Origin: Ptiloglossa arizonensis
Lineage: Eukaryota; Arthropoda; Insecta; Hymenoptera; Colletidae
DNA: 64,000 nucleotides
NCBI RefSeq assembly: GCF_051014685.1
Contig: NC_135056.1
Location: forward strand, 7,378,001-7,442,000
Direction: 5' to 3'
Of this stretch, positions 20,401 to 49,679 are shown piece by piece. How positions within the stretch are numbered: position 1 is the stretch's first letter; the number at the start of each line of letters is the position of its first letter. Made by a program: the position numbers and the translations under genes. The notes below the pieces were generated by a model, which was not told the origin of the DNA, made no database searches, and was given only the letters and a program-made list of their open reading frames with translations.

Positions 20401-20539
20401 TGTGTAGGGAACAATTTTCGGATTACCGGTTATGTTGGATTTCTTTTTTTTTTATTTCTTGTAATCGCAACGTTTTCCAAAGTGTGCTCCTCGAGTATCT
20501 GTGGAAATATAGTTACTTTCGGTAGAGGATACTGGTACT

Positions 20540-24440: not shown

Positions 24441-24443
24441 CGC

Positions 24444-27600: not shown

Positions 27601-29600
27601 CGTGGCACGTATGTATATAAATGGCACTGGGAAGTATGAAATAGTGATTCAACGCTGCGGCGAAGACCAACGATAAATACTTGAAAAATTCGCGGCCAGG
27701 GCCCGGATATTTGCTATTCGATGCCGCTGCGTTTCCGCAATTGACGCGATATTTATTTGTACTCGTTGCACCGTCGACGAATAACATCGAATCTATCGAG
27801 AAATCGCGAAATTAAAACGGTTTCGAAACACGTGCTCTGTCGTAACGCAGCGTAGAGCACGAGGTAAAAATATTTTTTTTAAAAAACTTTTCAATCGAGT
27901 AACCAAACGTGTGCATCGGTCTTTTTCTTCTGGAAAGTACAGTGTAAAGTTCTCGATGTTTCGTGGTTTCGTTAAATTTTTCAATTTGTACAGATTCTTT
28001 CGATAAATTACTTAGAATCGATTTAGAATTTGTGTAAAGTATAAATAATAATGTGTGACGTAACTTGAGTAACTGTTTTAATATCTATATTATTTTCATT
28101 TATTATATTTCATTTAACGTCCTTGTTGCACGTGTGTATAAAAGTGTGCATATAGAGTACATAAATAAAATTTAACGAAAAATGTGAAAAGAGGCAAGGT
28201 ACTGCTGAAGTACTGTCACTGCCTCGACCTTGGACGGAATAATAATTGCAGATGCATTTTTAATAATTATTCGAATGAAAAAATTGTAGGATACATTGAA
28301 AATCATATACGATCTAATAAAGTAGAATATATTTATTACAATTTAACGGTTTATTAAAATCAATGACTGAAAAATGTTCTCCCGTTTATAAAATCAATTT
28401 AGATCGGTTTTAATTTTAATTTCAACGTTAATGCTACGATTTATTGCCCCATTTGACGTAACGAGAACATGTAATAATCGAGATTGAAGAATTAAAATTA
28501 AAATGAAAATCGAAATTGAAATGAAAAATCGTAAACGAGCATCGGGAAAATTCGTTTCGTTCAGTTTCCTTAACGATTTAATTATACACTCGCTTTAAAT
28601 TTTTGTCCCGGCCGAGAACAAACAACGATTAAAGGAAAGGTATTAAAATGAAGGAGGACTCCTCGCGATATAAAGCGTCCAATTTGCAGTACGTACAGTC
28701 GCAAATTGCGTCCGTCAAATAAATCGTCTCTAACTAGGAAGAATGTGGAGGTTCGCTCGACGAATTTCGTAGCGTGCCTGCTTTAAATCGCCGGCGACAT
28801 CTTATCGGAGACATATTTGGAACGTTTCCCTGGCCAGCAAAAACGTTGAGAGCGCAATAAATGTCGGAGCAATTACACAATTAAACGATCCCGAATGCAC
28901 GAAACCGCGCCGTTTAAGTACGACGAGTTGTCCGTTCGCGTTCATTTTCATTTTCGGTCACACCGAACGTATTCTTCGCGATCGTCTTTACGTCAACTAT
29001 GCGTGCACCTCGGTCACCAAAATTAGATCGCGGCTAAATTTGAAACTCCCGATGAAATTAATTTAATGGACACCCGTCGAATATCGAGCGCCGCGGTTGT
29101 AATTCAATTATATGTTTACGTTCGCGCTAATACGAGTATCGGTATTACCAACGTGCATCGACGGTTTTACTCTAAATCGAGATCACGTAACGATTCCAAC
29201 CACATTTTTCCGCGCAATTTTTCCAACCGAGGAATGATATTTTTTTTTCGAGAAAAAAATTGAATTTCAATGCGCGCCAAATGAAACGCAACGGGAAATA
29301 AAATTACGGTATTGTTGCGGCTGGTTTATTTAGAAATGTAGGGAAGCGAGCGTTAACAGATGAAAAACTCGACGAATCAATGATTCTCGTTGAATTACAA
29401 AATCCAACTAATACGCGTAGACCGTATCGGTGGTGTTTCATTTCCATAGGTCAGTTCGCTATGGTCGAATCGACAACAAGGGCTTAAAGTTCGATTAACT
29501 TCGACCATTTGCAACGCTCGTGAAGAATTGAATGGACGTTGTAAATTTTGGAAAATGTTCGAATCAATGATTATACGTATCGATGTTGTATCTACGTACA
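24641..29600. other. AT-rich, no recognised gene
   Basis: Nearly 5 kb with scattered short open frames. Two consecutive plus-strand frames (26969-27223 and 27220-27447) share an ATGA, but neither has a recognised motif. CpG-rich patches occur at 27.5-27.8 kb and 28.6-29.0 kb. A small palindrome GATCCCTTAGGGATC lies at about 25302-25316. No RNA gene or mobile-element end is seen. Confidence 0.45.
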
Positions 29601-29838
29601 TACCGTGTCCCAATTATTACCGGTCGATTTGAATTTCGCAATATTTTTAGAACGTCAAACCGATTAACCTGAAACTTGACGTATGTTATTTAGACAGATG
29701 GGAAATTAGTTGTGGAAAAGTACACGATGAAAGAACGCGTGCAAATTATTCAGACGTATTACGAAAAATCGCGATCTTTAACGCTAACGATTCGGGGGAA
29801 AAAGTAAATCGACCGGTGATGATTGGGACACCCGATAT
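29601..29838 (+). mobile_element. Tc1/mariner-type MITE with transposase start
   Basis: The terminal inverted repeats are clear. The left end is CCGTGTCCCAATTATTACCG followed by GTCGATTT. The right end, on the minus strand, is GGGTGTCCCAATCATCACCG followed by GTCGATTT. The flanks are TA-rich. Inside, from the ATG at 29727 to a TAA at 29807, a 26-codon frame reads MKERVQIIQTYYEKSRSLTL. This resembles the N-terminal helix-turn-helix start of insect Tc1/mariner-like transposases (ERV-II-YYE-SLT pattern). The rest of the transposase has been lost, so this is an internal-deletion derivative that depended on a full copy elsewhere. Confidence 0.8.
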
Positions 29839-30429
29839 ATTACATTATATTTGTAATATCATCGATTAGTGGAATAAAGATTCAATTGTATATTGAATCG
29901 AATAAAATGAACTTTAACGAGAAATAAATAGAATTCACTTTTACGAAAAAAAAATACTCCTACGTATCGCTCATGTTTCTCAATAATAACGTTGAGAATA
30001 ATTTTTGTAAAAATAGTGGAAATCACGCTTGAAAAAGTATAGATTTCTAAAGGAATAGATAAAAATTAAAAAAATTATCGATTGCTAAATGAATAGACGA
30101 AGGCAGATATATAATAGAAATTCATGGTTCGAAAAATTGGAAGAAGTCTTCATCGGAATCCCAATGTCAGATGATAAGTCGTATTGATAAGTTGGATGAC
30201 AAGAACAATGGATAAATGTCTTTTTCTCTCGACTCCCTCTTTTTCTCTTTCCTCGGCTTCTTAACTTATCTTTTCTTTTAATTAAAACACACCAATTTTT
30301 CTTGTTCGATCGGTTCGTATTAATTCGTCGATTAATTCTAACAATTTAACATTAGAATATTTTGTGCACTGGATATTCATAGTATTTAAATAATACGATT
30401 GGACGAGTAGTATTAGCCTTGGGGCAAGA
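29839..30429. other. AT-rich, no recognised feature
   Basis: No open frame of note and no repeat structure until the self-complementary array starts near 30430. Confidence 0.5.
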
Positions 30430-30920
30430 AAATGATTACTTTCTTATTCGAGTAACTCGATCGAGTACTCAAACATTCGAATCATGGTATTTGAGTGCTC
30501 AAATATTCAGGCCATGATGTTCCAATGCTCAAATATTTGAGTTATGGTACTCGAGCACTCAAATATTCTACTCGTGGTATTCGAGTAATGATATTCAAGT
30601 ACTCAAATATTCTAGTAATAATATTCGAGTTGTGGTATTCGTGTACTCTAACATTTCAATACATAGCATTCGAGTAATGATATTCGACTACTCAACTATT
30701 CGAGTAATGTCTACTCGAACCCTCGATTATTCTAACAACGCTACTTAAATGCTTGAATACTCGACAAATGATTCTCGAACGCTCTACTATTCGAGTAATG
30801 TCTACTCGAATCCTCGACTATTCAAACAACGCTACTCAAATACTCGAATATCCGACCAATGGTACTCTGATAAATGCTCTACCATTCGAGTAGAAATAAT
30901 ACTCGAATACTCGAAGTTCG
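30430..30920. repeat. Degenerate self-complementary repeat (ATTCGAGTACTCAAAT)
   Basis: Words such as ATTCGAGTA, TACTCGAA, ACTCAAATATTC and GAGTAATG(G/A)TA recur in both orientations about every 20-30 bases. The basic unit is nearly palindromic (TCGAGTACTCGA, GAATATTC). Copies are strongly diverged compared with the other arrays, which suggests age or rapid mutation. Open frames in it are incidental. Confidence 0.8.
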
Positions 30921-31496
30921 TTCGTAACGTTCTCACATCTGTGTAGAAACGTTCGAACTGTCCCCGATCCTTGCTGCAAACCAGTCCCTACCGACAAAGT
31001 TGCGCGAACAGTGCGTCGGCACGCAACGCGCCAGACTTCCTGTCAACAATCTACTCTCCGAGAAACGACAACTATCCGTGAACTCATTGAACGGGCTCCC
31101 GTATTTTCAACGAAGAATGCGCATCGAATAACCGCGACGTGCCTCGCCTAAAAGTTTCGCGATCAATTCGCCCCGCCACCGCCATCGCCGCTTGTTGCAT
31201 TTTTCGGGTTAGACGGAGCGAGCCGAGGGAAGGCTTGGAAGGATACCGTATTCACGCAACCCATGGGACAGCAACGCGTCGTTTCGCCACGGTACCATCC
31301 GTCTTATAACGGTGAAATCGGCCAGCGAGAGACCGAGGACGATGGTTGGGGGATGCATTGCACGGCTGTATTGGTTTCCGCAATATTTACCAGGACGTTT
31401 GCGCGCACATTGTGCGTCGTCATATTGTTCTTTCCCTTTGTACGCTAATTTGACATCCTACATCCGTGCGCCTCAATACGGAGAGCGCAGTCTGCC
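30921..31496. other. CpG-rich sequence upstream of module copy 1
   Basis: CpG-rich DNA with several overlapping open frames and no recognised motif. It leads directly into the first copy of the repeated module. Confidence 0.4.
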
Positions 31497-31893
31497 GTTA
31501 TTAACAATAAGTTACCAGGCGGGGGCGCGGTTACCCCCGGAGCGTTGTTGCTTTGATCGTCGGCGAAACAATGCCGAAAGGATGCCGGGGTCGCGGCATA
31601 CAACCTGTACACTCGAGTTTTCCCGGTTGCCGCGAATTATACCCGAAAACACCAACCGCTCAACCCCTACCCCATCCACCACTACTCATCTCTTCCCCAC
31701 TAGTCCCGTGTAGCCATCCAGTGCCGCGGATGCGCGCGGCGATTATTGTTTTACCGCAGAATTTATCGTACTTGCCTAAGCGCAAGTTTTCCCCGACGAC
31801 TTTAGCCGCCCGCCGAAAGCGCGATTATGTACGCGTTGGATTTAATGGAACGGACCCCCGGTCCCGGCGTTGTTTGATTAATTTAATTAATTA
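31497..31893 (+). promoter_or_regulatory. Repeated CpG-rich module, copy 1
   Basis: Four ordered blocks define the module. First, GTTATTAACAATAAGTTA (31497). Second, GTTGCTTTGATCGTCGGCGA with CCGAAAGGATGCC (31545-31585), then TGTACACTCGAGTTTT. Third, ATTATTGTTTTACCGCAGAA followed by TTTATCG (31742-31768). Fourth, TTAATTTAATTAATTAACGG. The same blocks in the same order and orientation occur at 36.8 and 41.9 kb. Frames across the module are not kept between copies, so a coding origin is unlikely. TTTATG/TTTATC and TAATTAAT words are compatible with Hox/Caudal-type binding, which is inference only. Confidence 0.5.
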
Positions 31894-33480
31894 ACGGCTA
31901 CAGAGGCGTTGCGTCTGATGCAAAATTGTCGTTTGTTTGCGTATCGCGATGTTACCTGCGGGCTTGTATACACGCCCGTCTCGTTGAAAACATACCGAAC
32001 CGGGGTCCTAATGATGTTTCAACGTGGGGGAAAAATGATTCATCGTGCACCACGGTGCACGATCACGATCCTACCTCGTGCTGGAAATCCGTGACGTTGC
32101 ACTCGGGGACTATCGGTGCACCAAAATCGATGAAGGTTGTTTTTTGGATAGCCTTTTGGATCTTTCATGATGGGGAGAAATTAATTTCGGATGATACCGA
32201 GTCGAGAAGGAAGAGTGGGATGAGATTTGTATTGTTTTGCACGATGAGAGTAGAAAATGGATCGTAATTTTGGTGATAAATTTGCAATATTCATTACAGA
32301 ATGTAATATGAAGAACGTTGGGGTTTGAGATTGTTTATTTTTCGATTGTTGATCGCAGGGTTCGATTGTTCCCTAGATCTTCGGGATAACTAATTTACCA
32401 TCTATAAATTTACGTAAGAGAGAAAACTGAAGTTATAGTCTAATTCATAAATTAAAGTGAGAACTTCCTGATTATAAGATCAGAACATTTAATATTTTCA
32501 ATTAAAGATTATATATATTTCTTTTTATATATTAGCAATACTATCTATAAAATAAATTTATTTGATTGATGTATCAGTTTCAAAAATATATATTTCTCGT
32601 CCCTTTTATTACTCCACATTTTTCGTATCGCGAAATAATTCCTAATAAATTCGATAATTAATATTTCCAATATTCATTCTTCAGCTTTACTCGTATACAA
32701 TTTTGTAAATTAATTTCCAAGATGTTAATATCTGTCCAAAAGAGAGACCGTTTTTCTAATATTTCGAAACAAAGGAGGAACAAAAGTACTGTTTAACTCG
32801 TGCACTGATTTGCCACGCACAACGGAAAAATTGCGAATTTTCTTACAACTGGAGGACATAATTACACGTTTGACGGGAAGTACAGGCACATAAAGCGGAG
32901 GGAGTGTATTAAATGATATTTGAACTATATTTTGCAATTAAACCGGGGCCCTGGAATTTAATTAGGCGCATTAGATGACATAATACTTGATTCTGCCTCG
33001 TTGTACTTATTTCAAGTCCTCCAGCGTTTAACAAAGAACCGACAATTCCGACGGTTCTGGCTTTTGCAATTGTGGCCCGCAATGTCGCTCATTCCTATAA
33101 TTCTCCGCCAGGTTTCCGTAATTTTCAGAGCGAAATCGGTAGACTCGCATGACACTTGGCATAAATTTCCAAGGTAATTGTTGTTACAGATACCGTGTTT
33201 CAATAATGGTACCAACGAAACGTGGATGCAAATCGATGCTACGAATTTTTGAAAAAAATGTCTTTCGAACGCGATTAACACAGTTGACGTTAATGGGCGA
33301 TAATAGTTGTGCGTCTTTATTGTGATTAGATTGAACACTTCAAAAGGAAAATAATAGAGTATCGAGGAGAGAAAGAAAGGTAAGATACGAAAAGAAGAAA
33401 CGAAAAATGTGAAAGTAGAATTAAATAAAGGTACGTTCGGTACAAAGACGAAGTACGGCAATATGCTGTTATTAACCTAA
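31894..33480. other. Non-coding, no recognised feature
   Basis: CpG content falls away after 32.1 kb. Open frames at 31909-32267 overlap each other and have no motif. A short near-palindrome CGTGCACCACGGTGCACG lies at 32044-32061. Confidence 0.45.
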
Positions 33481-33482
33481 TT

Positions 33483-33657
33483 TTGGAAAGAATATAATAA
33501 GAGCGCAATAAAATAATAAGGAATAAAGAAAAGGGGAAAACGAACAGTTGAAAATAAGAAGAAATGTGTAAGATAATAAGTGAGTTGTTGAGAAAGAGAA
33601 ATAATGGTAAAAAAATAAAATAAAATAAATAGAAAAATAGAAAGTTCAGAGACAACA
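33483..33657 (+). repeat. A/G-rich segmental duplicate, copy 1
   Basis: Matches 34054-34208 nearly base for base: AATAAGAGCGCAAT(A/G)AAATAAT, TAAGAAGAAATGTGTAAGATAATAAG (in part) and AAAGTTCAGAGACAACA. The plus strand is A/G-rich. The minus-strand frames over it are Leu/Phe-rich because of composition. A weak third relative lies at about 35115-35280. Confidence 0.9.
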
Positions 33658-34053
33658 GCAGCAGGAGAGTCAAAAGAGAAAACAACGTTGAAATAAGAAC
33701 AATACTTATCGATGAAGGTATTTTGTAGTAAATTACCTATAAAAATGGCCTGTAAGACTTTTCGATCTTTTCTTTGTCTGAAAGATGTTTCGATGGCCAA
33801 ATATTTTAACAAAATATTGTCACTTTTAATAAGAAATATATTTGACTTGCAGTAAGAATGTCAGGAATTTTTTACAAAAAAAAAACAAAATTTAATCTCA
33901 ACAATAGTAACTATATTTATCCGTAAATAACACTATCACACAACTAGTTCATATTTACCATTATACTTTTCTGTTACTGCATAGTGTGTCACTGGTAACA
34001 TACACGAAAATTTCTTCATATTTTCCACGTCCTCGATGTTGTTTATCATTATC

Positions 34054-34208
34054 TTGGAAAGAATGTAATAAGAGCGCAATGAAATAATAAAGAATGAAGA
34101 AAAAGGGAAAAAGAACAGTAGAAAATAAGAAGAAATGTGTAAGATAATAAGTGAGTTGTTAAGAAAAAGGAATAGTAAAAAAATAAAATATAAAGTTCAG
34201 AGACAACA
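34054..34208 (+). repeat. A/G-rich segmental duplicate, copy 2
   Basis: Second copy, 571 bases after copy 1 in the same orientation, with small deletions in the AAATAAAAT-rich part. Confidence 0.9.
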
Positions 34209-36809
34209 CGAATGATATTTCCCTTCGAAAAAATTGTTTTCGACAACATACAAAAATTCACACGGTGTACAGCCTGTTCTTTAATATCCACGTGCAAAAT
34301 CATTGATACAAGAAGCTTTCGAAAATCTTTTCCATGGGAAGACCCCTGCCTAGTAAATCTATCGCGTAACATTTATAGTAATACGTCGTCCATGAAAATG
34401 ACTCGAATGCTTCGACGTATAGCAGCAGCTGATGTTTCAAACGAGTTGAGAGTCGAAGCAACGAACTTGAAATACGACTTATTAATTCCGACGAAGGTAA
34501 ACCAGATTGCCCCTCGGTATAATTCCTTTGATCGCGATGAACAACATCGAGAGTAGCTGGCGAACCGCCGAAACGCGCTTGAATTTTCGCACTTGATGCA
34601 AATTCCACCACGGATTACCGAATACCTCGAGTGCTTCTATCTCACGACGCTCTATAATAATTATTGTTCCAACGTGGAATTATCACACGTGAAAACAAAC
34701 GCCCTTGCCCAATAGAGGCAGCCCATGGTCAACGATAGGACGTCGTTGTCGAAAAAACCGAGGTCGAGTCGGTGCTCGTAACACTCATGAATAATCATGC
34801 ACGAGAAATCCCCCTTGGGAAAAATTTCAGACTGCCATCGGAGTGTCCTGTATTAAAGGAGTCGTTGCAATTTTCTTAATGGCGATGGAAACGCAACGGA
34901 AGTCCTTTAAGTGTTCAGCAGCGTTAAGTAGCGGGTGTTTGAATTAGTTACGTTTACATAACGAAGCTTAACAATACTCGTAAACATTGCAAGTGCTGCG
35001 AAAGCTGGCTGAAAAAATGTTTGCTTACATTCTGTTTGCCTTGTAGAATTAGGAAATTGGAAATTGGAGTGTGCGAGGTTATACAATGAGAAGTTTGAAA
35101 CACTACTGATTAATAATGAAGAATGATAAGTGAGCTTTTGTAAAATAATGAAGAACTAGGAATTGAAAAGAGAAAAAGGAAACGAACGTGGGAAATAAGT
35201 ATAAATATACGTATGAGATAATAATTGCGTTGGTAAAAGAATAATAGTATAATAATAGTAGAATAATATAATCGATGAAAATGTTCTGTAATGAATGGGG
35301 TACATAAGTTGCAATTTTGGCGACGTAAATAATTGAGTTATACGAAGAAATTCTTAATATACCTATGCTGTTTGTAATTTGCAACTTTTGTTCGACAAAT
35401 TGTTTTCTTTAACCCATAGCTTTCATGGTATTGAATTAACACAATATGTGTTATAGGAGTGTTTTATAGGATGTTGAATGGTGCATAAAATATAGAGGAC
35501 ACGATTATTGTAAAAGTAGACATTTGTTGACACCGACATTGAGTAGATCATTCCAAATGTATTTGTAAAATTTTCATCCACTATCTAGAATATAAATATT
35601 AATGTATCAGCAATTTATGGTGTTATATTACTGTGTAGTCAAGGTTAGATATTGTTGTTAATCGATAAATTCCATTAATCAGAATAATTTTCAATTAAAT
35701 TTTAACAGAATGTTTCTCAGATATCTTCAAATAGATCGATTCTTGTTTGTTTACACTAAAATGGCGATAGTGTAATACGATAAAATAAAATCTCTAAAAC
35801 CTCGATCCGAACACTCTTTTACGAAACTTATTTTAAAAAAGCTCTTAAGGTATTGACAAACTAATTACATACCCGTCGACAGTAGTTCCTTTCATGTAGC
35901 ATGAGTGGCTTAAGTGGGACAGCTTATATACGTAGTAGGACCATAATAAACTCGTGTATTGAACGAATTTTACTTCCCCTCTCCAGGAAAATTTACATAA
36001 AAATTATATCACGAGAATTACAAAGCACCAGCTTCAGATCGTTTCACTGTACACCATCCTCGTTTTACAGTGCAATTGCTTTTCAATCGTTTGTAAATTT
36101 AAATATCATTTAACCAATGAAATCACTGACGATAAAACCGTTAAAAATTGACACGAAAATAGCGTTCGTAAAATATCGACGAACCAATTAATATTTGAAA
36201 GAAAACATTGAATAAAGATCACGAGATTCTGATTACGAACGAAACGGAACAGCACATTTGCAACACGTTGGAGCAACTATCAAAAAAACTGTTAATCACG
36301 ATTAAAAACTCTATTCATACAGTGTTGGTAACTCGCTTACAAGCCCTCCTTGTTAATATATAAGTGCAGTTAAAAAGCTGCAGAAACGTGTAAAGAGTAA
36401 TTTACTTAGTCGACGTTTCTCTTCAGGTGCGCAATTAACTAAACAAGAAGGGTGTTGAACATTAGCATAAAAACGTAAAACTAGGGCGCTATAAAAAGAA
36501 CTATATACGGAAAATACGAAGAAATGACCAAAAACGAAAAACGAGGACGAAAGTTTCCGTCTCTGTTTTCGACACGAAGTTTCAAGCGAGAAGAAAAAGA
36601 AAGTAATTTACAAGTGCGAGATTTAAAGTCTCGCGGACGAAAGAATCTTACAGGTGCCGGTTATTGGTCGTTAATTAAAACTGCTTCCGATAGTTGCAAA
36701 AAGGATCGGGTTCACTCGGCCATACATCACCGCGTTTAACAGTTCCCCGACCGTTTACAAATTTAAGGGGCAACGTATAGTTGAATTTCCAAAGGGAACA
36801 CGGCCCGGT
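34209..36809. other. Mostly AT-rich, no recognised feature
   Basis: Open frames on both strands at 34.2-34.6 kb overlap and show no domain. A weak relative of the A/G-rich duplicate is at 35115-35280. Nothing else is supported. Confidence 0.45.
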
Positions 36810-37165
36810 GTTATTAATGATACGTTATCACGCAGAAGGGTGAACGGGTGTTGTCGCTTTGATCGTCGTGGAACAACGCTATTCGGAAGGGGGAATGGTG
36901 CAAACGGTGTACAATTTGTACCCGAGTTTTCGTACTTGGCAGAAATTGCGTCCCGACATGGCCCCCTCTCGCGCGTGCGAAGATGAAACTCACCGTTCTG
37001 TCTCGCGCGACACTTTGTAATAATTATCGTTTCGTCGCGAGATTTATGGGACGGCTCTGGTATCCCGGGCCATTGAAATTTTCTGACTGCACCGAAATAA
37101 TTGCGACGTTGTTCGTCGAGGCTGCACGAACCAATGTTCGCGGTTCCTCGTCCCTGTAATTAATC
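36810..37165 (+). promoter_or_regulatory. Repeated CpG-rich module, copy 2
   Basis: Same block order as copy 1: GTTATTAATGATACGTTATC (36810), GTCGCTTTGATCGTCGTGGA (36853), GGTGTACAATTTGTACCCGA with GTTTT, then AATTATCGTTTCGTCGCGAG followed by ATTTATGGGACGG (37022-37053), and finally GTAATTAATCAC near 37157. The start lies 5.31 kb after copy 1 and 5.10 kb before the 41.9-kb copy. No common open frame. Confidence 0.5.
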
Positions 37166-37685
37166 ACACTCGTTCGATGATTTCCGCAAAATTGAGGAAA
37201 CTGACGGTGGGAATTAGCAGTTTGTTTTTTTGTTTTTTGTTCTTTTATTTTATCATCGTACCGATGTTCGTTTTCAAATATTTTTCAGCGACCGTGCTTC
37301 GTCACCGCGGGTGCTTTTTCTATTTATAAACTCGATACTCGTTCGTAGGGATGGGATTTCGATACTTTGGATACCTTTACGTATGAAATTGATACTCTTG
37401 TATTATTATAAAGTGTGTTTAACAAAGATTTCTGATTTATCGCCCGGGATCGATTATTGGAATCAAATAGTCGTGTGCGAAGCATCGGCTGGATGAAGAT
37501 TTCTTTGAAATTGTTCGAACGGTGTCTAATTTTCACTCAGATAAGTGGGATTTGATTATTGTTGTGTAAGTGTTTGGGATATTTACTAGGAAGCTTTTCG
37601 TTCGATGTGAGATATACATTGATCGTGTAATTTAAAGTGGAATTTTTATGGAACAAATACCGAATTGAAAGTCGTTTTATTTTAA
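37166..37685. other. AT-rich, no recognised feature
   Basis: Short open frames on both strands near 37.2-37.5 kb show no motif. The stretch leads into the terminal-repeat array. Confidence 0.45.
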
Positions 37686-38331
37686 TAGGTTGTTCAATAA
37701 GTTTTGTCGTTTGATAAAACTTATTGCACAGTACTGTTCAATGTAGTTTTATCGAATAACAAAATTTATTGAGCAGTACTGTCCAATGTAGTTTTATCAA
37801 ATAACAAAATTTATTGAGTAGTACTGTTCAACGTAGTTTTATCGAATAACAGAATTTATTGAGCAGTACTGTTCAATGTAGTTTTATCGAATAACAAAAT
37901 TTATTGAGAAGTACTGTCCAATGTAGTTTTATCGAATAACAAAATTTATTGAGCAGTACTGTCCAATGTAGTTTTATCGAATAACGAAATTTATTGAGCA
38001 GTACTGTTCAATGTAGTTTTATCGAATAACAAAATTTATTGAGCAGTACTGTTCAACATAGTTCTATCGAATAACAAAATTTATTGAGCAGTACTGTTCA
38101 ATGTTATTTTTATCGAATAACAAAATTTATTTTGCAGTACTGTTCAATGTAGTTTTATCGAATAACAGAATTTATTGAGCAGTACTGTTCAACGTAGTTT
38201 TATCGAATAACAAAATTTATTGAGCAGTACTGTTTAATATAGTTTTATCGAATAACAAAATTTATCGAGCAACCTAGTACTATACTGTTCAATAAGTTTT
38301 GTCGTTCCATAAAACTTATTGAACAACCTAG
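37686..38331. mobile_element. 45-bp tandem array built from mariner-type end repeats
   Basis: The segment begins TAGGTTGTTCAATAAGTTTT and ends, as its complement, AAAACTTATTGAACAACCTA, so the whole block has matching inverted ends. Between them a 45-base unit recurs about a dozen times (AGTTTTATCGAATAACAAAA then TTTATTGAGCAGTACTGTTCAATGT). Each unit is an imperfect palindrome of the end repeat itself: the first and last units still read TTCAATAAGTTTTGTCGTT(N)ATAAAACTTATTG. Inner units share changes absent from the outer ones. A palindromic MITE thus appears to have amplified its own core. Single palindromes of the same type lie at 56422 and 57013. Confidence 0.85.
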
Positions 38332-39170
38332 TATTCGTTGTTTGACGTTTTTATCCAAGTAAGCATTTTATACATTGAATTTTGGTAGTAGATTAGCAAC
38401 ATTGTTGTTTCGTTAAGGACTTGACGATATGTACTGTTTGAATTGTATCGATATGGTAAATATCGGAAAAAGTTTTTATTGGATTGAAATTCGTACATTT
38501 TTCTGTTACAAATACATTGTATTAAAGAAAGACAATTTCAACAGATTTAATTACACATCTGTATATTTTACATTCTCGATTCACGTTTGTTTAGAATAGA
38601 TTCGAAAAGTAAACGATCCGAGAACTTTTATAGTGACATTTTAAAAAAACGAATCCAAACATAAATTTTCGTTTCAAGCGAGAGAACAACAACCTCTATC
38701 GGAACAAAATGATAGAATATTTCCAAAAAACAACGATCAAAATTACAAAGCAAACACGAATCGTAAAATTTAAATGAAAAATATATTACACTAAATTTTC
38801 CATAAAATTACAGAATCTCAGAAGTTCGTAAATATTCATTACACAGAGGCAACAAAACTGCACATATAATTCCAACTGTAAAAGTCTACATGTACCTTAA
38901 ATTATTATCTAAAATTGAAGGTTGTACTTAAAATTTAACCTAGAAAAAATTTTAAGTAAGGTTGTACTTAAAATTTAACAACCCCGTTACTTATTTCACC
39001 AATTTCTCCGATAATACTCCATTATTCCATTATCATAGAAATCATTTCAAACAAAAGTGAAAAATTTGTCTACGATCGGACCGTTTCGATCAACACCAAG
39101 GTCCTTAATTCATCGAAGAAGCAACGACAGAAATCGTTGGTTGGTCTCGTCTCGATTATTGTTACAAAAT
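38332..39170. other. AT-rich, no recognised feature
   Basis: A 29-base stretch (AAGGTTGTACTTAAAATTTAAC) is repeated at about 38919 and 38958. Nothing else is seen. Confidence 0.45.
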
Positions 39171-39625
39171 CGTGTGTCACCGAGCCGGTGTCCCGTCGCA
39201 ATTTATTCGGACACCGCGTATATCTTCGCAGCCCTTTCAGCGCATTCGATTCTTCGCGCGTTCATCGTGCAGAAATATTTTCCTTGATCGAAATACGAGT
39301 ATTCCTGCATTTTGTTATCCTGCCATTCCAGAGCGGAATTGTTCGCGACATCCGTTTCGTACACGCGATATCGTGTCAGTTTCATTCGCGCGTCAGGTTC
39401 ATCGGGAGCCAGGTCCGCGCCAGCGAATTATGATATTCCTTTTTTTTTCACCTCGTGCTCGCTCTGAGCACGAATATAACACCGCGAAAGAGCACGATAG
39501 ACACGAGGATGGATCAGCGGGCTTGTCTTCCGTAGCGTTTCGCGATTGTTGTTGCTTCATCGCGAAATTTATGACACGGCCGCCAGACGTTCCGCTACAA
39601 ATTAATAACGTATCGATACAAATGT
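39171..39625 (+). promoter_or_regulatory. Repeated CpG-rich module, partial copy
   Basis: The third block of the module is clear at 39543-39580: ATTGTTGTTGCTTCATCGCG followed by AAATTTATGACACGG. A looser version, GTCCCGTCGCAATTTATTCG, is at 39189-39208. An ATTAATAACG end follows at 39600. The first block (TTGATCGTCGG) was not found. Long overlapping open frames (up to 158 codons) cross the region but have no protein motif. Confidence 0.35.
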
Positions 39626-40349
39626 TGCCCGCTCGTGAACGTTTATAAATGCAACGACTTTGGTAAATTTGATCGAATTACGAAATCGGTGGCGAATTCG
39701 AAGGAAAGCTTGCCCCGACGCGATTAAATCCAAATTGATGCGATTACGAACGTACCGGAAGCCAATTTTGTATTGTATTGCGATCGATAAATAACGTTTT
39801 CGATGGAATTATGGCCACCTAAAAGTTTCATCGAGAATTCGGTCTCTGCGGCAAAAGTAATACTGTGATAAATAATCAAATTCCAATTGTACTGCGTATT
39901 AATTGCTCGAAAGGGTCATTTTTCCCCCACTGTTAGGCGAGGCAACTGTAGGATACGAATTATCGAAAGTATTATCGAAAAAAATTGGAAATCAGGATAT
40001 TGTTTTTCAAGAATGAAAAATCTGGCGTTTGTACGCTATGTGAAAAATAATTAAGTGTATTCGAACGATTGTTCTAGATCGGTGATTTTCATAGGTTTTT
40101 ACTTCTTTTTGTATCCTTCTTGTATCTCCACTTAAAAAGAAAAATTCAACGTGCAAGATAAGTGGTAGGTTTAAAGCGAGCCGAGAAAAAATATAGTGAC
40201 GGTTCGGTATCCACGCATTTTTCTAGATTAAATTCTTTCGTGACTCCTCCCCATTGGACTGCAAACATCAATCACTTTGAAAAACACTGATCTAGATCCA
40301 TAGATCTAGTTTGTAGATAATCCATAACTGTGTCGTTGTTCCAGCTACA
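39626..40349. other. AT-rich, no recognised feature
   Basis: No open frame with a motif. Leads into the 198-bp array. Confidence 0.5.
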
Positions 40350-41785
40350 TTGTTTTCTGATTAATATTTCGATAATTGATACTAATTTACACCAGTTACT
40401 AATTTCTAACATCGATAACAACAAAATGTAACCAAAACAAGGAGGTAAAATAATGCTACCAAAGAAAGATAATATTTCCAAAATAATTATCAAGAAGTAA
40501 TTTCACAAATACAGATGTCAATATTCATTCGATGCTTCAGAAGAAATACTCGAGAATCAGTATCATTCGTCACTAATATTAGATCCCGTCGTCATACTAA
40601 TTTCGAGACATCGATAACACCAAAATGTAACCAAAATAAGAAGGTACAACAATAATACTAAAGAAAGATAATATTTCCAAAATAATTATCAAAAAATAAT
40701 TTTAAGAATACCGATATCAATATTCATTCGGTACTTTAGAAATACTTGAGAATCAGTATCATTCGTCACTAATATTAGATCCCGTCGTCATACTAATTTC
40801 GTAACATCGATAACACCAAAATGTAACCAAAACAAGAAGGTACAATAATAATACTAAAGAAAGATAATATTTCCAAAATAATTATCAAAAAGTAACTTCA
40901 CAAATACCGATATCAATATCACTTCGATGCATCGGTCTAAATACTCGAGAATCAGTATTATTTGTCACTAATATTGGATCCCGACGTCATAGTTATTTCG
41001 TAACATCAATAACACCAAAATGTAACCAAAACAAGAAGGTACAATAATAATATTAAAGAAAGATAATATTTCCAAAATAATTGTGAAAAAGTAACTTCAC
41101 AAATACCGATATCAATATTCATTCGATACTTTAGAAATACTCAAGAATCAGTATCATTCGTCACTAATATTAGATCCCGACGTCATACTTATTTCGTAAC
41201 ATCAATAACACCAAAATGTAACCAAAACAAGAAGGTACAATAATAATACTAAAGAAAGATAATATTTCCAAAATAATTATCAAAAAGTAACTTCACAAAT
41301 ACCGATATCAATATCACTTCGATGCATCGGTCTAAATACTCGAGAATCAGTATTATTTGTCACTAATACTGGATCCCGACGTCATACTTATTTCGTAACA
41401 TCAATAACACCAAAATGTAACCAAAACAAGAAGGTACAATCATAATATTAAAGAAAGATAATATTTCCAAAATAATTATCAAAAAGTAACTTCACAAATA
41501 CCGATATCAATATCACTTCGATGCATCGGTCTAAATACTCGAGAATCAGCATCGTTCGTCACTAATATTGAGTTCCGTCGTCATTCTAATTTTCGTAACA
41601 TCAATAACACCAAAATGTAACTAAAACAAGGAGTTACAGCAATAATACTAAACAAAGCTAACATTTACAAAATAATTGTGAAAAAGTAACTTCACAAATA
41701 CCGATATCAATATCAGTTCGATGCATCGGTCTAAATACTCGAGAATCAGCATCGTTCGTCACTAATATTGGGTCCCGTGGTTAGT
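40350..41785 (+). repeat. 196-200-bp tandem array, about seven copies
   Basis: The (A/G)GATCCCG(T/A)CGTCAT landmark recurs at 40581, 40777, 40976, 41172, 41371 and, altered, at 41570 and 41770. Steps are 196, 199, 196, 199, 199 and 200 bases. Units with TTCATTCG(G/A)(T)ACTTTAGAAA alternate with units with TCACTTCGATGCATCGGTCT over the middle copies, so part of the array is built from two-unit repeats. The last copy runs straight into the CpG-rich sequence before a module copy. No conserved open frame. Confidence 0.9.
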
Positions 41786-41911
41786 CCCAACGCAGATCTT
41801 GGCACGCGCGAACGCTGTAGGTAAACAGAGGGGGTGACTACTGCAAGGAAGCAGCGATATTAAACAGAGAATTAAATCCACGGTAAACACGAAAACCGGG
41901 AGCGTATTTAG

Positions 41912-42220
41912 CGTCGTTAATTACTGGTGCGTTTATCGTTCGGCGAAATAACGCCGAAAGAAATCGCGATATAAATGCACACCGGGCTCTTTTTCCGGGA
42001 CGATACAAATTGCATCGTTCGCGGCGCGAGGTGAAGCTCGCCCGGCCGGCCGGCTATCGCGGCGGGCGTTCGCAATTATTGTTTCACAACGGAATTTATC
42101 ACGAGTTCTTCTTCCCGGCCGGCGAAGAACTTTTCGGGCCACGCGAGAGCAAACGTTGCCGCTTTGAACCCGGCTACCGCTGCCCCGGCCGCGGCGCAAC
42201 TTTTCTAATTAATGGTAATT
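41912..42220 (+). promoter_or_regulatory. Repeated CpG-rich module, copy 3
   Basis: Blocks in order: GTCGTTAATTACTGGTGCGT (41912), TTATCGTTCGGCGAAATAAC with GCCGAAAGAAATCGC (41933-41967), CAATTATTGTTTCACAACGG followed by AATTTATCACG (42073-42103), and CTAATTAATGGTAATTAG (42206-42223). The sequence between is very GC-rich (CCCGGCCGGCCGGC). Open frames on both strands (70 and 88 codons) have no motif and do not match frames in the other copies. Confidence 0.5.
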
Positions 42221-43384
42221 AGCCCCGAACGAGAAGAAGTTTAAGACCGCGATAAGAAACGGATCGCGCATAAACGGGATTTACAATCGAGCATTGTTCC
42301 TCGGTTTTTGACTTCGTCGCGGGTTTATTTACATTTTCCCAGTGCGTACCGGCTCGAAAACGACGACGGTGGTGATTTTTTTAGAAATTTACGCGTTTAC
42401 TTCCGGGATCCCCGGAAATTGGATTTTCTACGAATTCGAACGGGAAACCGGACATCGATGCGGTGTATAATTGAGAACGTATTTTTGTTTCCTCTTTTCG
42501 GATCGGGAAGCGGAAAAATGTTTCTACCTTTTCTTCCCTTTGTACTTAACTCGGTTGCACGAAACGGATATTTTTTACAGGCGGGATACGTATCTGAATG
42601 TTACTTAAATTCATTTAACGACGGAACAATGTACGAAGAACCGCGAATAAAAGAATTGTTATGTTGAATTTGAACTTCGCTTTTACGTAACGATGTACAG
42701 TCCAGTAATTTATCATTTGAACTCTAACCATGTTAAATTACTTTAATGCGTAATACTGGAAAACACAGATAATCTTGTTCGAAGTACATTACATAATTAA
42801 TGTAAGTGCGTTGTATACTACTGTTGATTCACGCCGTGTAATTAAGAAAATTAAAATTATTCACTTCAAAGAGTTTCAATGTTTAAATTATAATCGTGGA
42901 ATAAATTTCGTAAAATGTATCGTTGTTTAGAATACAAGTTCAAGAAAAATGATTACGAACAAACATTTAAATATTCATCGATTCGGAGCTTACGTGATCC
43001 TGTGTATAGCTTGAAGAAGATTTACATGGTTTTATGAAAACACGAGTGCTTGCCAAGCATGATTGAAAGATCGTCTCTAAACGGTCACTTGGATCGAGTA
43101 ATCGGAAAAAAAAAAACGTGTACATGTCACAACCAGACAGTGCTTCCAATTGGCAGAACATGAGTCACCAATGTCATCCTGTCGATCGAAAGTCTTCGCG
43201 CCTTTATGACGCATTGCTCAGTTGTGACAAGTTTTGCGCCACCCACGTAAAAACGTATGGGTATCTTGTTATCACCACTTCGATTTATTAATACACGTAC
43301 AATCGTTGAATCATTTAAACGCTCATCGAGACACCCCATGCTCTTCGCGTGTTTCGTACTCCGTAATTGTTTCTTTGCACAGTG
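42221..43384. other. Non-coding, no recognised feature
   Basis: A 119-codon open frame at 42308-42667 has no recognisable domain or splice context. The rest is AT-rich. Confidence 0.4.
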
Positions 43385-44830
43385 AAACGAATTTCAATTT
43401 TTATTGTATTCAATTTTTATTCAAGACTATCCCCGTTAGGTTTCACGAGAGTATCAAACAATTCCAAACATATTACAACTTCACCAACATGCAGAGCACT
43501 TGTTTCTCCAAAATAATCCAAAAGTGAAACGAGTTTCAATTGTATTGTTCTAAAATATCTCTACACCAATCGTCATAGTTTTATTCAAGACTGTCTGCGT
43601 TAGGTTTCACGAGAGTATCAAACCATTCGAAACATATTACAACTTCACCAACATGCAGAGCACTTGTTTCTCCAAAATAATCCAAAAGTAAAACGAGTTT
43701 CAATTGTATTATACCAAAACGTCTCTACACCAATCGTCATAGTTTTATTCAAGACTGTCTGCGTTAGGTTTCACGAGAGTATCAAACAATTAGAAACATA
43801 TTACAACTTCACCAACATGCAGAGCACTTGTTTCTCCAAAATAATCCAAAAGTGAAACGAGTTTCAATTGTATTGTACTAAAATATCTCTACACCAATCG
43901 TCATAGTTTTATTCAAGACTGTCTGCGTTAGGTTTCACGAGAGTATCAAACCATTCGAGACATATTACAACTTCACCAACATGCAGAGCATTTGTTTCTC
44001 CAAAATAATCCAAAAGTGAAACGAGTTTCAATTGTATTATACCAAAACGTCTCTACACCAATCGTCATAGTTTTATTCAAGACTGTCTGCGTTAGGTTTC
44101 ACGAGAGTATCAAACCATTCGAGACATATTACAACTTTATTAGCATGCAGAACATTTGTTTCTCCGAACATAATCCAAAGTAAATCAAGTTTCAATTATA
44201 TAATACTAAAACGTCTCTACACCAATCGCCATATTTTTATTCAACACTGTCCTCATTAGGTTTCACGAGAGTATCAAACAATTTGAAACATATTACAACT
44301 TCACCAACATGCAGAGCACTTGTTTCTCCAAAATAATCCAAAAGTGAAACGAGTTTCAATTGTATTGTACTAAAATATCTCTACACCAGTTGCCATAGTT
44401 TTATTCAAGACTGTGTCCTTTAGGTTTCACGAGAGTATCAAACAATTCGAGACATATTACAACTTTACCAGCATTTAGAATACTTGTTTCTCCAAACAGA
44501 ATCCAAAAGTAGAACAAGTTTCAATTATATTATACTAAAACGTCTCTACGCCAATCACCATACTTTTATTCAACACTGTCCCCCTACACGAGAGTATCAA
44601 ACAATTCGAGACATAATACAACTTTACCAGTATTCAGAACACTTGTTTCTCCGAATATAATCCAGAAAGTGAAACGAGTTTCAATAGTATTGTACTAAAA
44701 TATCTCTACACCAATCGCCATACTTTTAGTCAACACTGTCCCCCTACACGAGAGTATCAAACAATTCGAGACATAATACAACTTTACCATCACGTGGAGC
44801 ACTTTTTTCTCCGAGCATAGTCCAAAAACT
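43385..44830 (+). repeat. 164-bp tandem array, about nine copies
   Basis: The AACATGCAGAGCA(C/T)TT landmark recurs at 43486, 43650, 43814 and 43978, exactly 164 bases apart, and then in decaying form to about 44820. Each unit holds AGGTTTCACGAGAGTATCAA and GTGAAACGAGTTTCAATTG. Units with TTGTACTAAAATATCTCTAC alternate with units with TTATACCAAAACGTCTCTAC, so the repeat is largely two-unit (328 bases). Identical 63-codon open frames 328 bases apart follow from this. Since 164 is not a multiple of three, the frame is not kept through the array. The right-hand copies are shorter and more diverged. Confidence 0.9.
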
Positions 44831-44889
44831 ATGACCGCCGTTGTTCAACGCTGAAACGGAGCACCTTTTTACAATTAGTAGCTTTTGAA

Positions 44890-45160
44890 GGGGACGTTAT
44901 CACAAGGTGTCTGTGCTTTTATCGCCTCGGAGCAGTGACGAAAGGACCTTCCAGGATCGCGCTACATTCGAGTTTTAATGCTTGTTACGAACTGTAACCC
45001 TGCAACGTGAATGCACTCTACAATTACACCCTTACTGGGAACTTCGTCCTTGCCGTGCCGCGAAGTTTTCTTCGACGTTACGTCTTCTCTCGACTTTATT
45101 CTACGCGCAAAGGCTTTAATTAAAAAACTCACCGCGCATCCTTTAATTAGCGATCTCGCA
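44890..45160 (+). promoter_or_regulatory. Repeated CpG-rich module, weak copy
   Basis: GTGTCTGTGCTTTTATCGCC then GACGAAAGGACCTTCCAGGA and ACATTCGAGTTTT resemble the second block of the module copy at 31.5 kb, in the same order. GGCTTTAATTAAAAAACTCA and CTTTAATTAGCG near 45115-45150 stand where the AT-rich end block is expected. The third block is not convincing, hence low confidence. Confidence 0.2.
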
Positions 45161-47886
45161 TTTCCCCGCGAGAATTGTACTTTATGAAAATTGCACAAAT
45201 GCAGCGACGGAGCGTGCTCGAACGAAAGGGCAACGTTCCTCTGACGATTCTTCTATGGAGCTTGAACGATCGCATTTATCGCTCTGTCGGGAGAAATGGC
45301 TCTCATTTTGTATTTGTTGGTTTACTACATGGCTTGGTAAATTCTCCGGGGTAGATGTTTATGAAAAGAAATCTGAAATGATAAGCACTTCATGGAAATG
45401 TGTTCGGTTTGGAGTGTCCTTCAGTTTAGTACCCGCGGCTTTGGTTAGTCGACTCTTTAAAAGCGGAACACTTTTAACTTATCGCGGCACGGAATATACG
45501 AGTTTGGAATTATTAACACGGCAATAACATTGAAAATTATTCTATCTGGCTCGTAAATTTATTTTACCTTGTTGAATTTCATTACGCGTGCACGGGGAGA
45601 ATGCTTTGACCATTATTCGATCTTTATCGAGGTAAGGTTACATTCGATATTCAGCAATAGGTACTCAACTGTAATTTTTAAGGCAAGTATTTAAAAATCA
45701 TTCTTAACGGTTTTATTACGTGAATCGTAATTTATGATTCTCTGGATTGTGGTTCTTTCCAGAGTGAATAAATAGGTCATGTGAGAAGTTGATTTTCATT
45801 TAAAGATACAACAATGATATTCTAATAAGTAACTTTTTGATTAGGACATACTGTGTAATATGTACTTCCTTTGTCTGTATTGGTTATACTTTTCCAGTAA
45901 GTCTTCCTCTTTGTCAAGAGTGCATAACTAATTCTATTTTCTTCTCTTACGATTCATTATACAATCTATACTAATTTATCGTATGCATTCCTAATTTCCA
46001 GTAAGGTAAATGTTCAATTTTCAACGTACTCTAGGACTTGGAGGGTTAGAGAGAATATATAGTACGTGTGCGAGAAGATTGCGTTTGGAGTTATGGCAAG
46101 TCATTTCCTCAAGCTCGTACGAGGCAAATACACACATCCTGACGAGACCGTAACTGGTCGAATAGAATGTATTATAATTAATACTCCATTTTATTTCAAT
46201 ATTAAATACGCGTGTAAAATAGATATAGAACGAATTATGACACAAGAAACTACGAGCCACTTGAATATTGATACTTGAACGAACGAACGAAAATTAACTT
46301 CTCCGTTTAATTTGCAATTTCATTGGTACGCAAAGCATTTATAGGAGTAGAAGAACTTTTTAAAAGTAAAATGTAATCGCGACATTTAGAAGAAGAGGTT
46401 CTGAAAATGCGTGGCTGCATTGAAGTAACTTGAAAGTGCTGTATGAGTATGAGTATTCCTGAGAGCAGTTAATGTGTCGTGAGAGAAGTTCAGAGCGAAG
46501 TTTGAAGTGAGTGAAGTACACCATAAACAGAGATAGAGAATGAGAGAGAGACAGAGAGAGAATTGGATTATTTAGAGAGAATTTTACCGAGAGAGTGTAG
46601 CGAACTTTTGCATCCGTGCATTGTTAATACAACATTTCGTGTATTACGATTATTCATACCCCCGAGAATAATTCGATCAACTATCTCAAACGTTGCATAC
46701 TTATACTTTAAAAGCTTCGCCGCATAAATTAGATAGGCGTTAAAAATTCTATTATACCAAATATAATAGATTTATTGTTTCAATATTCCATGTCCTCGTT
46801 ATTTGATTCGTGTTATCGAGCCGCCCGAAAGCGTGTATTAAAATCATGTTCGGGAGCTACGCGAGACATTAAACTCGCTACCGTTTAAATTTTCGCGTAA
46901 CATCGATCTAAAGTTAAATATTCATTGTATTAAAATCTAGCAAAATCCTCGCCCGATTTTCATCGATTCGATTCAAAACCGTTACACGATAAGATTACCG
47001 GGGAATGGCCCTTTTATGCATATCGGGGCGATCCATTCGTATTACCGTAATCGTTCCGACCAAAATTTAACGACCGGTGTCGTCAGCAATAGTTCTCGAG
47101 AAACTGTACAACGATTCGTCGAAGTTCGCGTAGTTGGAACGAATCGTGCACGAGATTGGAAACGTTGCCCGCCCGAAGAACGGAAGGCACCGTTCGTTTA
47201 TTCAGTTTTTAAATTAGAAAATCGAGAACGAGCAGAACTCCCGCGGTTTTGCGGAAATTGGCAAGCGAAACGCGGTATACACCGTTCTTATCGGGGGTCC
47301 ATCGCTCGTTCCTTTTTCCAACTACCATCCTTTTGCTCGTTTACCTTCTAGATACTGTTTCTTGAAACGCTTGCAATTACACGGTTCCCGCTAAAGTGGT
47401 ACGCTATGCCTGCCGCGCGAACAAACCAAGGAGTATCCTCATGGAAAACAGGGTGCACAGGGAAATGAAAGAAAACGAATATCGAGTCTCTCTTTAAAGT
47501 AGCTCTTCGCACGAACACGGAGAACACAAAGTCGGCCAGACTGCGCCTGAAGTGAAATAGAAACGTATACCACGAACTCGATGAGACAAACAATACACTT
47601 TCCTTCTATAAACTGGTTAAAAAGTAATACCCGCTGTTCGAGCGCGAGACGAGACAGCGGAGTCTCTAGACTTCTATCGAACACTTTCCAAACATTGGAT
47701 CTACCATTGGTCCTGATCCTCAAAACGGTCATCCGAGAAACTTCCAACGCGATAGATTCACTACCGAGATAGTTCTCCCCGCTCTGTAAGGTACTTTCGA
47801 ACGTAAATCTTCAATCGTTACCGTGGACCGGGCACCATCCACAAATTGTACACAATCACATCACGAGCATGTGTCAATACCGTAGG
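45161..47886. other. Mixed composition, no recognised gene
   Basis: Open frames at 45255-45527 (90 codons), 47016-47351 (111 codons) and on the minus strand at 47439-47747 show no domain. A short GA-rich run (AGAGAGAGACAGAGAGAGA) lies near 46541-46560. CpG content rises at 46.8-47.4 kb. Confidence 0.4.
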
Positions 47887-48600
47887 ACTTCGGTAGTTGC
47901 AGAGAATTGGAACTCAAACCTAACCTAAACGCTTCGCGGACGCTTCTAAATATAAATCTTCTCCATCTCCTTCGCTGCACATTGCAGCGTTCAACTAATT
48001 CTAACTAACTGCACCACAGGTCGCCTTCGACGCGATGAAACCTCGATAGTTGCAACCGAACTTAGGTAAGACCTAACCTGAACATTTTAGGGACAATTCT
48101 AGGAATAGAAATCTTTTATCGTCTCAGTTTGTCTTGGAAAACAAATCTCCAACTTGGACACGTCCCAATAACGCGGCATATATTGTATAGAAAAAAAGAA
48201 TACCGTTTGGAAAAATGGAGTGGGCTTGATTATTAATTCTTATCGTCACGAATTGTTCATATTTCTGTCGACAAATCAAATATCTGTAGTTCTTTTATCG
48301 ATGAGAAGACCATTAGTCACTGCTTCTACGTAAGACCTAACCTAAACATTTTAGGGACAATTCTAGGAATAGAAATCTTTTATCGTCTCAGTTTGTCTTG
48401 GAAAACAAATCTCCAACTTGGACACGTCTCAATAACGCGGCATATATTGTATAGAAAAAAAGAATACCGTTTGGAAAAATGGAGTGGGCTTGATTATTAA
48501 TTTTTATCGTCACGAATTGTTCATATTTCTGTCGATAAATCAATTATCTATAGTTCTTTTATTGATCAAAAGACCATTAGCCACTGCTTCTACGTATAGT
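47887..48600 (+). repeat. 264-bp tandem duplicate plus older relic
   Basis: Two nearly identical copies start TAAGACCTAACCT at 48067 and 48331 and run to about 48596. They differ at a few scattered bases. The part 47887-47960 (GGTAGTTGCA … AACCTAACCTAAACGCTTCG … AATATAAATCTTC) is a diverged third copy of the unit's start. So an old duplication was followed by a recent one. Non-coding. Confidence 0.9.
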
Positions 48601-49679
48601 TACTTGCCTTTTTTTTATTCGTATAGGATAAACCCATTAGGATGTACGTTCGGAGTGTAACAAAAATATTTGTCTCGGCTTTCAGAGATGAAACCATATA
48701 TTTGGATCGATAGTAGTTCGTGAAACCTACACGCAACGTTCGTTTTAACCGTAAAATTGGAAGTCAAATTTTTGTATTATTCCTACGTATCCTGTTCGAC
48801 GAAATAGAAAACGAAACTTTCGACAGAAAGCATACATCGTAAACGAATCGTTTTCTCGCAAACGGTTGCCGAAGTTTTGGCCAATTGAATCGCATCGAAT
48901 TGCTTCTGGAAACCAAACGCTCCTCCCACCGTAACGAATCGCCCCGCCTCTCGAGGCAACGCTGTGCAATTCAGTTACCTAAAACTTTTGGAGAGAGCGG
49001 AATACATAGAAATGATAAAAAAAAAATTTTCCTTTCACATACAACGGTGAAAATTAATTGTTCGGCAGATTATTTTAATAAATCTTCTCCCCGTTCGAGC
49101 GATTCATATCTGGTAACCGAGCCGAATATTTACTAAAACGCGTACATCGATGCGGAAAATTAATAAATATATACGTTCATTTGAACACGAAACTAAATAT
49201 TTCGTGTACACCGTTATGATTCGAAATCCAAATTAAGATAACGATTATCCAAATTAAACTACCGCTCTCTTAATTTCTATCCAACGGTATATTTTCTATC
49301 ACACTCGAACTACAATCTTTTCGAGAAACGAAAAAAGAAATATCTCTCTTTCCCGTACCGTTTAGTAAATACGAAATGGTAATCGTTAAAAATATTCTTG
49401 ATTTGTTCGTTAGAAATATCACGGATGCAAAAAGTGTCGAAAGTGGTCCAATTAGACCAACTTTTACCCGTATGGAAAAAAAAATATCCGATACGTTCGT
49501 ACAGAAGGAACGTCCGAATGCAAATTTCGACGAAGGCGCGCACAAAGCGTAAAATAAAAAAAAAAAGAAAAAAAGATACGTTCGATCGGCTAATGGCGCC
49601 GATTTCGTTTTACGAAAGAATCCGTAATATCGCCACAGCGACTGTAGCGGTGACCTGACAATTTCGCATTCACCGCACG
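48601..49679. other. AT-rich, no recognised feature
   Basis: Short overlapping open frames on both strands near 48.7-49.7 kb without any motif. A-rich tract AAAATAAAAAAAAAAAGAAA near 49550. Confidence 0.45.

Follow-up and report, generated by a model that had tools for sequence, protein, structure and literature searches.

The window analyzed here, 64,000 nucleotides of the Ptiloglossa arizonensis genome (C9:7378001-7442000 of a 998.7-Mb assembly), lies inside a single intron of a semaphorin gene, semaphorins being nerve-guidance molecules. An initial annotation had pointed to a family of CpG-rich modules in this window that carry the same ordered motifs about every 5 kb. We added 100 kb on each side, giving 264 kb for analysis (coordinates are those of the window and become negative to its left), and found five supported copies of the module, all on the + strand and within 14 kb of the intron. 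Together with a weak partial copy that may be a sixth, these modules are, as we think rather probable, an old tandem array of noncoding elements of ∼200-400 bp with a putative cis-regulatory role for the semaphorin gene.

The locus

The intron is bordered by the splice junctions AAG/GTAAGC and TTTCAG/GAT, and the exons on its two sides, at -97.5 kb and 67.8 kb, adjoin in protein residues. Six exons match the Semaphorin-1A chain 6qp9 in order (residues 50-111, 106-139, 137-175, 204-253, 250-365, and 453-526); the first two flank the intron and the four others lie further 3′. Two semaphorin exon-like open reading frames (ORFs) in the 264 kb gave Pfam matches, to Sema (3e-34) and PSI (1.8e-7), and a third, of 69 amino acids, gave no Pfam match. 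Since two exons, those at -97.5 and 115.5 kb, are matched better by chain 6fkk (MIP07328p), which we take to be Drosophila Sema-1b, than by 6qp9, we call the gene class-1 and Sema-1a-like; it is transcribed on the + strand. The window has a GC content of 37% and a CpG observed/expected ratio of 1.66, and a ratio near this value is usual for bees and other Hymenoptera. The intron and the modules are as follows, with bit scores from nhmmer profiles.

1..64000, + strand: the whole window, interior of the single 165,161-bp intron of the class-1 semaphorin gene (intron at window coordinates -97379 to 67781)
31481..31898, + strand: m31, the best preserved copy, with block A at 31550-31571, A2 at 31612-31638, B at 31741-31766, and TAATTAAT at 31884 (leave-one-out 57.2 bits, E 2e-17)
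34470..34760, + strand: m34, a copy overlooked in the initial annotation, with its core at 34508-34690 and A2 at 34578-34604; it contains ATGCAAAT
36794..37173, + strand: m36, with A at 36856-36877, A2 at 36921-36947, and B near 37023 (leave-one-out score 21.5 bits with E 1.3e-6; paired with m31 at E 1.2e-8)
39506..39621, + strand: m39, a weak partial copy with block B only (four of the five profiles give it 4.5-10.2 bits, and the fifth does not list it)
41867..42221, + strand: m41, with B at 42074-42099 and TAATTAAT at 42206 (leave-one-out 28.1 bits, E 1.4e-8)
44883..45167, + strand: m44, with A and A2, its block B being unrecognizable (leave-one-out score 19.7 bits with E 5.5e-6; paired with m31 at E 2.9e-5)

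Block A starts, which we used as anchors, lie near 31550, 34526, 36856, 41929, and 44915, and the steps between copies measure 2.3-5.1 kb. The period of ∼5 kb proposed initially, from a spacing of 5.1-5.3 kb, thus equals about two steps.

Homology of the modules

For the leave-one-out scores, profiles were built from three of m31, m36, m41, and m44 and searched against both strands of the window. As a null, we ran six profiles against 100 local dinucleotide-keeping shuffles of 24 kb each (2.4 Mb), where the best score was 13.8 bits; on the reversed 264 kb, the profiles reached at most 3.2 bits. All four copies scored above these values, and so the family of ordered copies in the same orientation at 31.5, 36.8, and 41.9 kb holds, as does the weaker copy that had been suggested at 44.9 kb. 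The copies are old and diverged, as had been supposed. The additional copy, m34, was found by all five profiles, with 25.1 bits (E 1.3e-7) when the profile comprised the four copies without m34 and with 20.9, 12.7, 16.2, and 19.0 bits for the three-copy profiles; its pair with m36 has an E value of 7e-4. One of the five m34 scores is below the overall null maximum, yet above the maximum of its own profile: the 13.8 bits came from the profile lacking m44, and the profile lacking m36 reached 9.4. The partial copy announced at 39.2-39.6 kb corresponds to m39 at 39.5 kb, whose pair with m36 has E values of 0.0016-0.018 but whose bit scores remain under the null maximum. The candidate at 49.8 kb (m49) is not supported.

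The modules were also aligned locally in pairs and compared with shuffled sequence, the check that the initial annotation had proposed. The scores of m31-m36, m31-m41, m31-m44, m36-m41, and m36-m44, five of the six pairs among these copies, were each equaled by 0 of 100 dinucleotide shuffles; against real GC-rich segments, they were equaled by 0-2 of 208 on the same strand and 0-1 of 208 on the opposite strand. Each of the nine pairs involving m39 or m49 was equaled by at least 13 of 100 shuffles. The aligner was used with a low gap penalty, which yields near end-to-end alignments, and its scores are to be read against the shuffles. With blastn restricted to the modules, m31-m41 gave 36 bp at 83% (E 5e-5) and 29 bp at 83% (E 0.002), m31-m36 gave 19 bp at 95% (E 0.002), and m36-m39 gave 25 bp at 84% (E 0.007), an E value also attained by a low-complexity T-rich match between m36 and m49. 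Across the whole window at E<1e-3, no module pair was among the best 80 of 90 blastn matches.

A five-copy covariance model (sequence only), which recovers its five copies by construction, found m39 alone outside them in the 264 kb, at 10.6 bits and E 0.054. Apart from m39, neither the covariance model (to E 10) nor any of three nhmmer profiles (E<0.04) gave a further match in the 264 kb. The module tree is star-like with weak support, and it does not support a two-module unit of 5.2 kb made of odd and even copies (bootstraps 48 and 57). What lies at this one locus are hence homologous noncoding copies in tandem.

Motif blocks

The blocks are shared in the order A, A2, B, followed by a TAATTAAT end in m31, m36, and m41. 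Block A reads CTTTGATCG..GAACAACGCC, block A2 CTCGAGTTTTC...CTTG....AATT, and block B AATTATTGTTTC..CG..GAATTTAT; by eye, block A is a clear palindrome in m31 and m41 only. The motifs listed initially as common to the three copies are partly so. ATTAT[TC]GTTT[CT] is found in all three (31742, 37023, and 42075) and also on the minus strand at 11824 and 18104. Exact GTTATTAA occurs at 31497 and 36810 and exact TTGATCGTCG[GT] at 31553 and 36859, the copy at 41.9 kb having just GTTAATTA and, for the latter, TTTATCGTTCGG instead; the sole exact match to the CG..GA(A)TTTAT expression is at 31755. The proposed end motif, TAATTAAT, is little informative because it is common, with 23 occurrences on both strands of the window.

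CTTTGATC (in m31, m34, and m36) resembles a TCF/LEF word, ATTGTT a Sox word, and ATGCAAAT (in m34 only) a POU word. By such resemblances, which also extend to homeodomain-like words, TCF/LEF-, Sox-, and POU-like words fit the blocks as well as the Hox/Caudal-type sites mentioned initially. A signature scan of the 264 kb found no homeodomain, and a class-1 semaphorin as host gene lends no support to the Hox/Caudal proposal.

An island of similarity between blank spacers

To compare the modules with their surroundings, we slid 250-bp windows from -1500 to +2125 around the block A anchor. Only between about -125 and +375 were the windows similar, with mean z of 5.1, 4.3, and 2.5; the others had mean z of -0.7 to 0.8 except for one single-pair window at 1.9. 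The pair m31-m44 reached z 3.7 in one window, at +1000. Windows on repeat arrays were dropped, so that each position rests on 1-10 of 10 pairs, with none at -1250 to -750. Similarity forms an island that reaches from about -70 to +350 relative to the anchor and stops after about 350-400 bp, and the edges are sharp.

An all-against-all search with 400-bp pieces of the window, minisatellites masked, gave no spacer pair between units at E<0.05; a repeat at 33.46/34.04 kb sits inside one spacer. In simulations, five AT-rich spacers of 600 bp were given module-like divergence; all 24 of 24 trials detected them, on average through 4.9 of 10 pairs. Of the 10 pairs among the real modules, 4 were found at E<0.01, and m36-m39 in addition. 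If the spacers were copied along, the modules have therefore been kept better than the intervening DNA. Either similarity decayed more quickly in the spacers than in the modules, or the spacers were never copied; the former is favored because of the tandem layout and the single orientation.

Genome-wide distribution

According to the initial annotation, hundreds of copies with element ends across the genome would have made the family a transposon. We scanned the 998.7 Mb with three block patterns, allowing ≤2 mismatches and using reversed sequence as the control, and saw no dispersed family. The block B pattern matched in three places (m31, m41, and one on contig C2; control 0), the A2 pattern in 33, including m31, m34, and m36 (control 6), and the A pattern in 14, including m31 and m36 (control 4). 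Where A2 and A exceed their controls, the additional places are scattered and may reflect word composition; within the pattern lists, two or more blocks come together in this array only. Patterns B, A2, and A recover 2, 3, and 2 of the five local copies; at this rate, dispersed copies of the same divergence would have appeared if they numbered in the hundreds. A 404-bp m31 query found only itself in the genome, a search that is blind to 55% identity and so excludes near copies. No genome family dispersed in both orientations emerged from the m31 query, the 264-kb model, or the three block patterns, and two block patterns had 0 matches in viral contigs.

Protein and RNA tests

Among 477 ORFs of at least 25 amino acids between 28 and 52 kb, we found no convincing peptide shared across units. 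The best blastp match (E 0.008) lies outside the blocks, and over block B the E values were 0.087 (minus-strand frames of m36/m39) and 0.098 (m31, m39). In a Pfam search of ten proteins altogether, no match was found for the five ORFs over m31 (two), m36, m39, and m41, the ORFs of m34 and m44 lying outside this search. Since indels (insertions and deletions) between copies disrupt the reading frame, no conserved frame runs through the copies, and the initial view that selection on protein is unlikely stands.

At the RNA level, Rfam at gathering scores gave no match in the window. The consensus fold is weak, at -1.36 kcal/mol with 18 pairs, and we found no stable covarying fold across the copies. 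The sense strand of the intron has no YAGGTRAGT recursive splice site.

Other arrays and repeats of the intron

A second and a third array of GC-rich modules lie in the same intron.

4010..4361, + strand: second array, copy a4 (a4-a6, E 2e-10)
6227..6597, + strand: second array, copy a6, aligned with a4
8368..8495, + strand: second array, copy a8 (a4-a8, E 2.9e-5)
about -56860 to -44170, + strand: third array, whose two clear copies lie at -56.8 and -53.7 kb

The modules of the second array are diverged, ∼2.2 kb apart, and on the same strand, with no detectable kinship to the first array. Adjoining a8 at 8337-8388 (+) is a block-B-like stretch that scored 19.1 bits in a three-sequence scan (8347), above a simulated maximum of 16.5; with fuller profiles, it has E values of 0.13-6.3 where it appears, which is not significant. 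Possibly this stretch points to a connection of the first array with the second. In the same part of the window as the second array, 5217-5369 and 9942-10080 form an additional diverged direct pair. Weaker candidate copies of the third array are seen at -52.0, -48.5, -47.0, and -44.3 kb, also on + (14.6-17.2 bits with a two-copy profile).

The 264 kb contain 118 GC-rich islands. At E<1e-3, these islands form 14 pairs, of which 13 are direct. One pair falls within a single island, and two, among them the inverted pair, stretch over 46 and 111 kb. The array under study accounts for four of the 14, and the others include the second array, the third array, and two further pairs, one at -16/-10 kb and one at 84/87 kb. 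At E<0.01, the window had 8 pairs (7 direct) among 33 islands (22,400 bp) and a 60-kb control region on another contig 0 pairs among 18 islands (9,550 bp); as a single control with less GC-rich DNA, it cannot show the intron to be special. The spacing of GC peaks is no more regular overall than in block-shuffled signal (coefficient of variation 0.42 versus 0.35-0.55), which gives no support to a rhythm across all 264 kb. For 28-52 kb alone, the autocorrelation, as a descriptive value, was 0.22 at a lag of 2.5 kb and 0.43 at one of 5.25 kb.

Tandem repeats of the window fill 48 rows of Tandem Repeats Finder (TRF) output. Minisatellite arrays occupy 37691-38325 (45-bp unit), 40397-41777 (199), 43415-44827 (164), and 60594-62010 (202), two of them stopping <100 bp from m41 and m44. 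A short palindrome-like element recurs on both strands (13142-13394, 16996-17214, and 19270-19420, and again at 134.7, 135.6, 137.8, and 151.1 kb). The element at 13142, 16996, and 19270 is probably a miniature inverted-repeat transposable element (MITE). A 356-amino acid open frame at -91064 to -89997 has, by eye, the look of a mariner-type transposase.

Discussion

Our preferred explanation starts from an enhancer-type module that consisted of several short blocks in a fixed order and most likely served the semaphorin gene. This module would have been duplicated locally in tandem, each step measuring roughly 2.5 kb, and its copies would have been retained, presumably under selection, as the AT-rich spacers drifted until no common sequence remained. 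With the semaphorin gene as the likely target, the retained copies could act as enhancers that give it redundant or graded control, bound by transcription factors for which the words in the blocks suggest candidates. The initial annotation had left a choice between duplicated cis-regulatory elements and an unknown element family; we favor the former, as far as the DNA itself can tell, because no block was seen dispersed in the 998.7 Mb at the sensitivity used and the supported copies share one orientation within 14 kb of one intron.

Several observations weigh against this explanation. In gapped alignment, the copies are 44-56% identical pairwise, and the m41-m44 score is equaled by 8 of 100 shuffles, that pair not being significant by itself. 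Block A has the variant TTTATCG in m41 and m44, and block B cannot be recognized in m44. Each genome-wide pattern misses 2-3 of the five local copies, so a few diverged copies might exist elsewhere, and the spacers may be later insertions or may not have been copied at all. In the consensus fold, 7 of 18 pairs are changed on both sides in some copy. The initial impression that motifs are kept inside otherwise unlike sequence fares only partly well: block clustering is modestly above neutral, the observed values of four measures being reached in 2, 5, 17, and 6 of 100 runs of an indel-matched neutral model (0-19 of 100 under three other settings and 0-14 of 100 with shorter indels), and it is weakly supported that the motifs are held tighter than the rest of the module.

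This modest clustering fits an account in which the modules are functionless, neutral leftovers of an old tandem duplication whose GC-rich parts stayed alignable longer, as does the frequency of tandem duplication here, seen in the TRF rows and the other diverged direct duplications. We nevertheless regard the account as unlikely, given that AT-rich spacers at module divergence were found in every simulation and yet were not seen in the window and that the module edges are sharp; the lack of island pairs in the control region, against 8 in the window, adds a weak argument, as the control has less GC-rich DNA. That the modules act as RNA, whether as exons of an intronic noncoding RNA or as splicing or processing elements, appears improbable to us. 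The supported copies are indeed all in sense orientation relative to the host gene, no peptide shared between them was found, and the two-sided changes in the fold could be read this way, but the missing Rfam match, the weak fold, and the lack of a sense-strand recursive splice site speak against it. Short modules with blank spacers would likewise be left if a short, old transposable element or a MITE had gone through a local burst of insertion, and the element at 13142, 16996, and 19270 behaves MITE-like on both strands of this very window. The supported copies, however, have one orientation within 14 kb and none elsewhere in the 264 kb, the block patterns revealed no dispersed family, the m31 query found only itself (within its blindness to 55% identity), and shared inverted ends or target duplications were not apparent by eye in the alignments, which makes such a burst quite improbable. 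Finally, the tandem same-strand layout with gene-like spacing would suit remnants of tandem protein genes or alternative semaphorin exons; with the best cross-unit peptide match outside the blocks, no Pfam match over m31, m36, m39, and m41, and frames broken by indels, we hold this to be very improbable indeed. An array of retained enhancer-type modules remains our preferred explanation.

More tentatively, the intron as a whole may be a nursery of modules grown by local tandem duplication. At least three GC-rich families without detectable relationship (-57 to -44, 4 to 8.5, and 31.5 to 45 kb) and the pairs at -16/-10 and 84/87 kb would then be same-strand copies that were kept as their spacers were erased, with enhancer copy number possibly tuning a guidance gene. 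If true, such a nursery intron would be a noncoding counterpart of tandem gene families. Old tandem enhancer families within one intron are hard to trace; here, five copies are alignable and the spacers are not. The array lets one ask which sites survive duplication, whether copies are redundant or specialized, and whether enhancer copy number tunes the guidance gene.

Shadow enhancers are defined by overlapping activity. Insect shadow or redundant enhancers are like the modules in that several elements belong to one gene, presumably with similar input (excerpts of PMC7556877); they rest on activity, whereas the modules are known here from sequence homology. Among the papers listed in literature searches, titles and abstract beginnings mention no such array in a semaphorin or hymenopteran intron. 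In vertebrates, duplicated conserved noncoding elements (dCNEs) are homologous noncoding elements in several copies near developmental genes, and many conserved noncoding elements are enhancers (excerpts of PMC2781166). The modules share with dCNEs that homologous noncoding copies are kept near a developmental gene. In the same excerpts of PMC2781166, dCNEs are tied to genome duplication and paralogous genes, whereas the modules are tandem, in one intron of one gene in one genome. Segmentally duplicated regulatory elements of humans are also noncoding families recognized by sequence similarity (excerpts of PMC13333887); the human case concerns segmental duplications, and the modules are old local copies in one intron. 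For bees, the main text of a self-transcribing active regulatory region sequencing (STARR-seq) study in Lasioglossum albipes contains neither "tandem" nor "semaphorin" (PMC11568387). In that study, 34% of enhancer regions are intronic (excerpts of PMC11568387), and it is the intronic location that the modules have in common with these bee enhancers.

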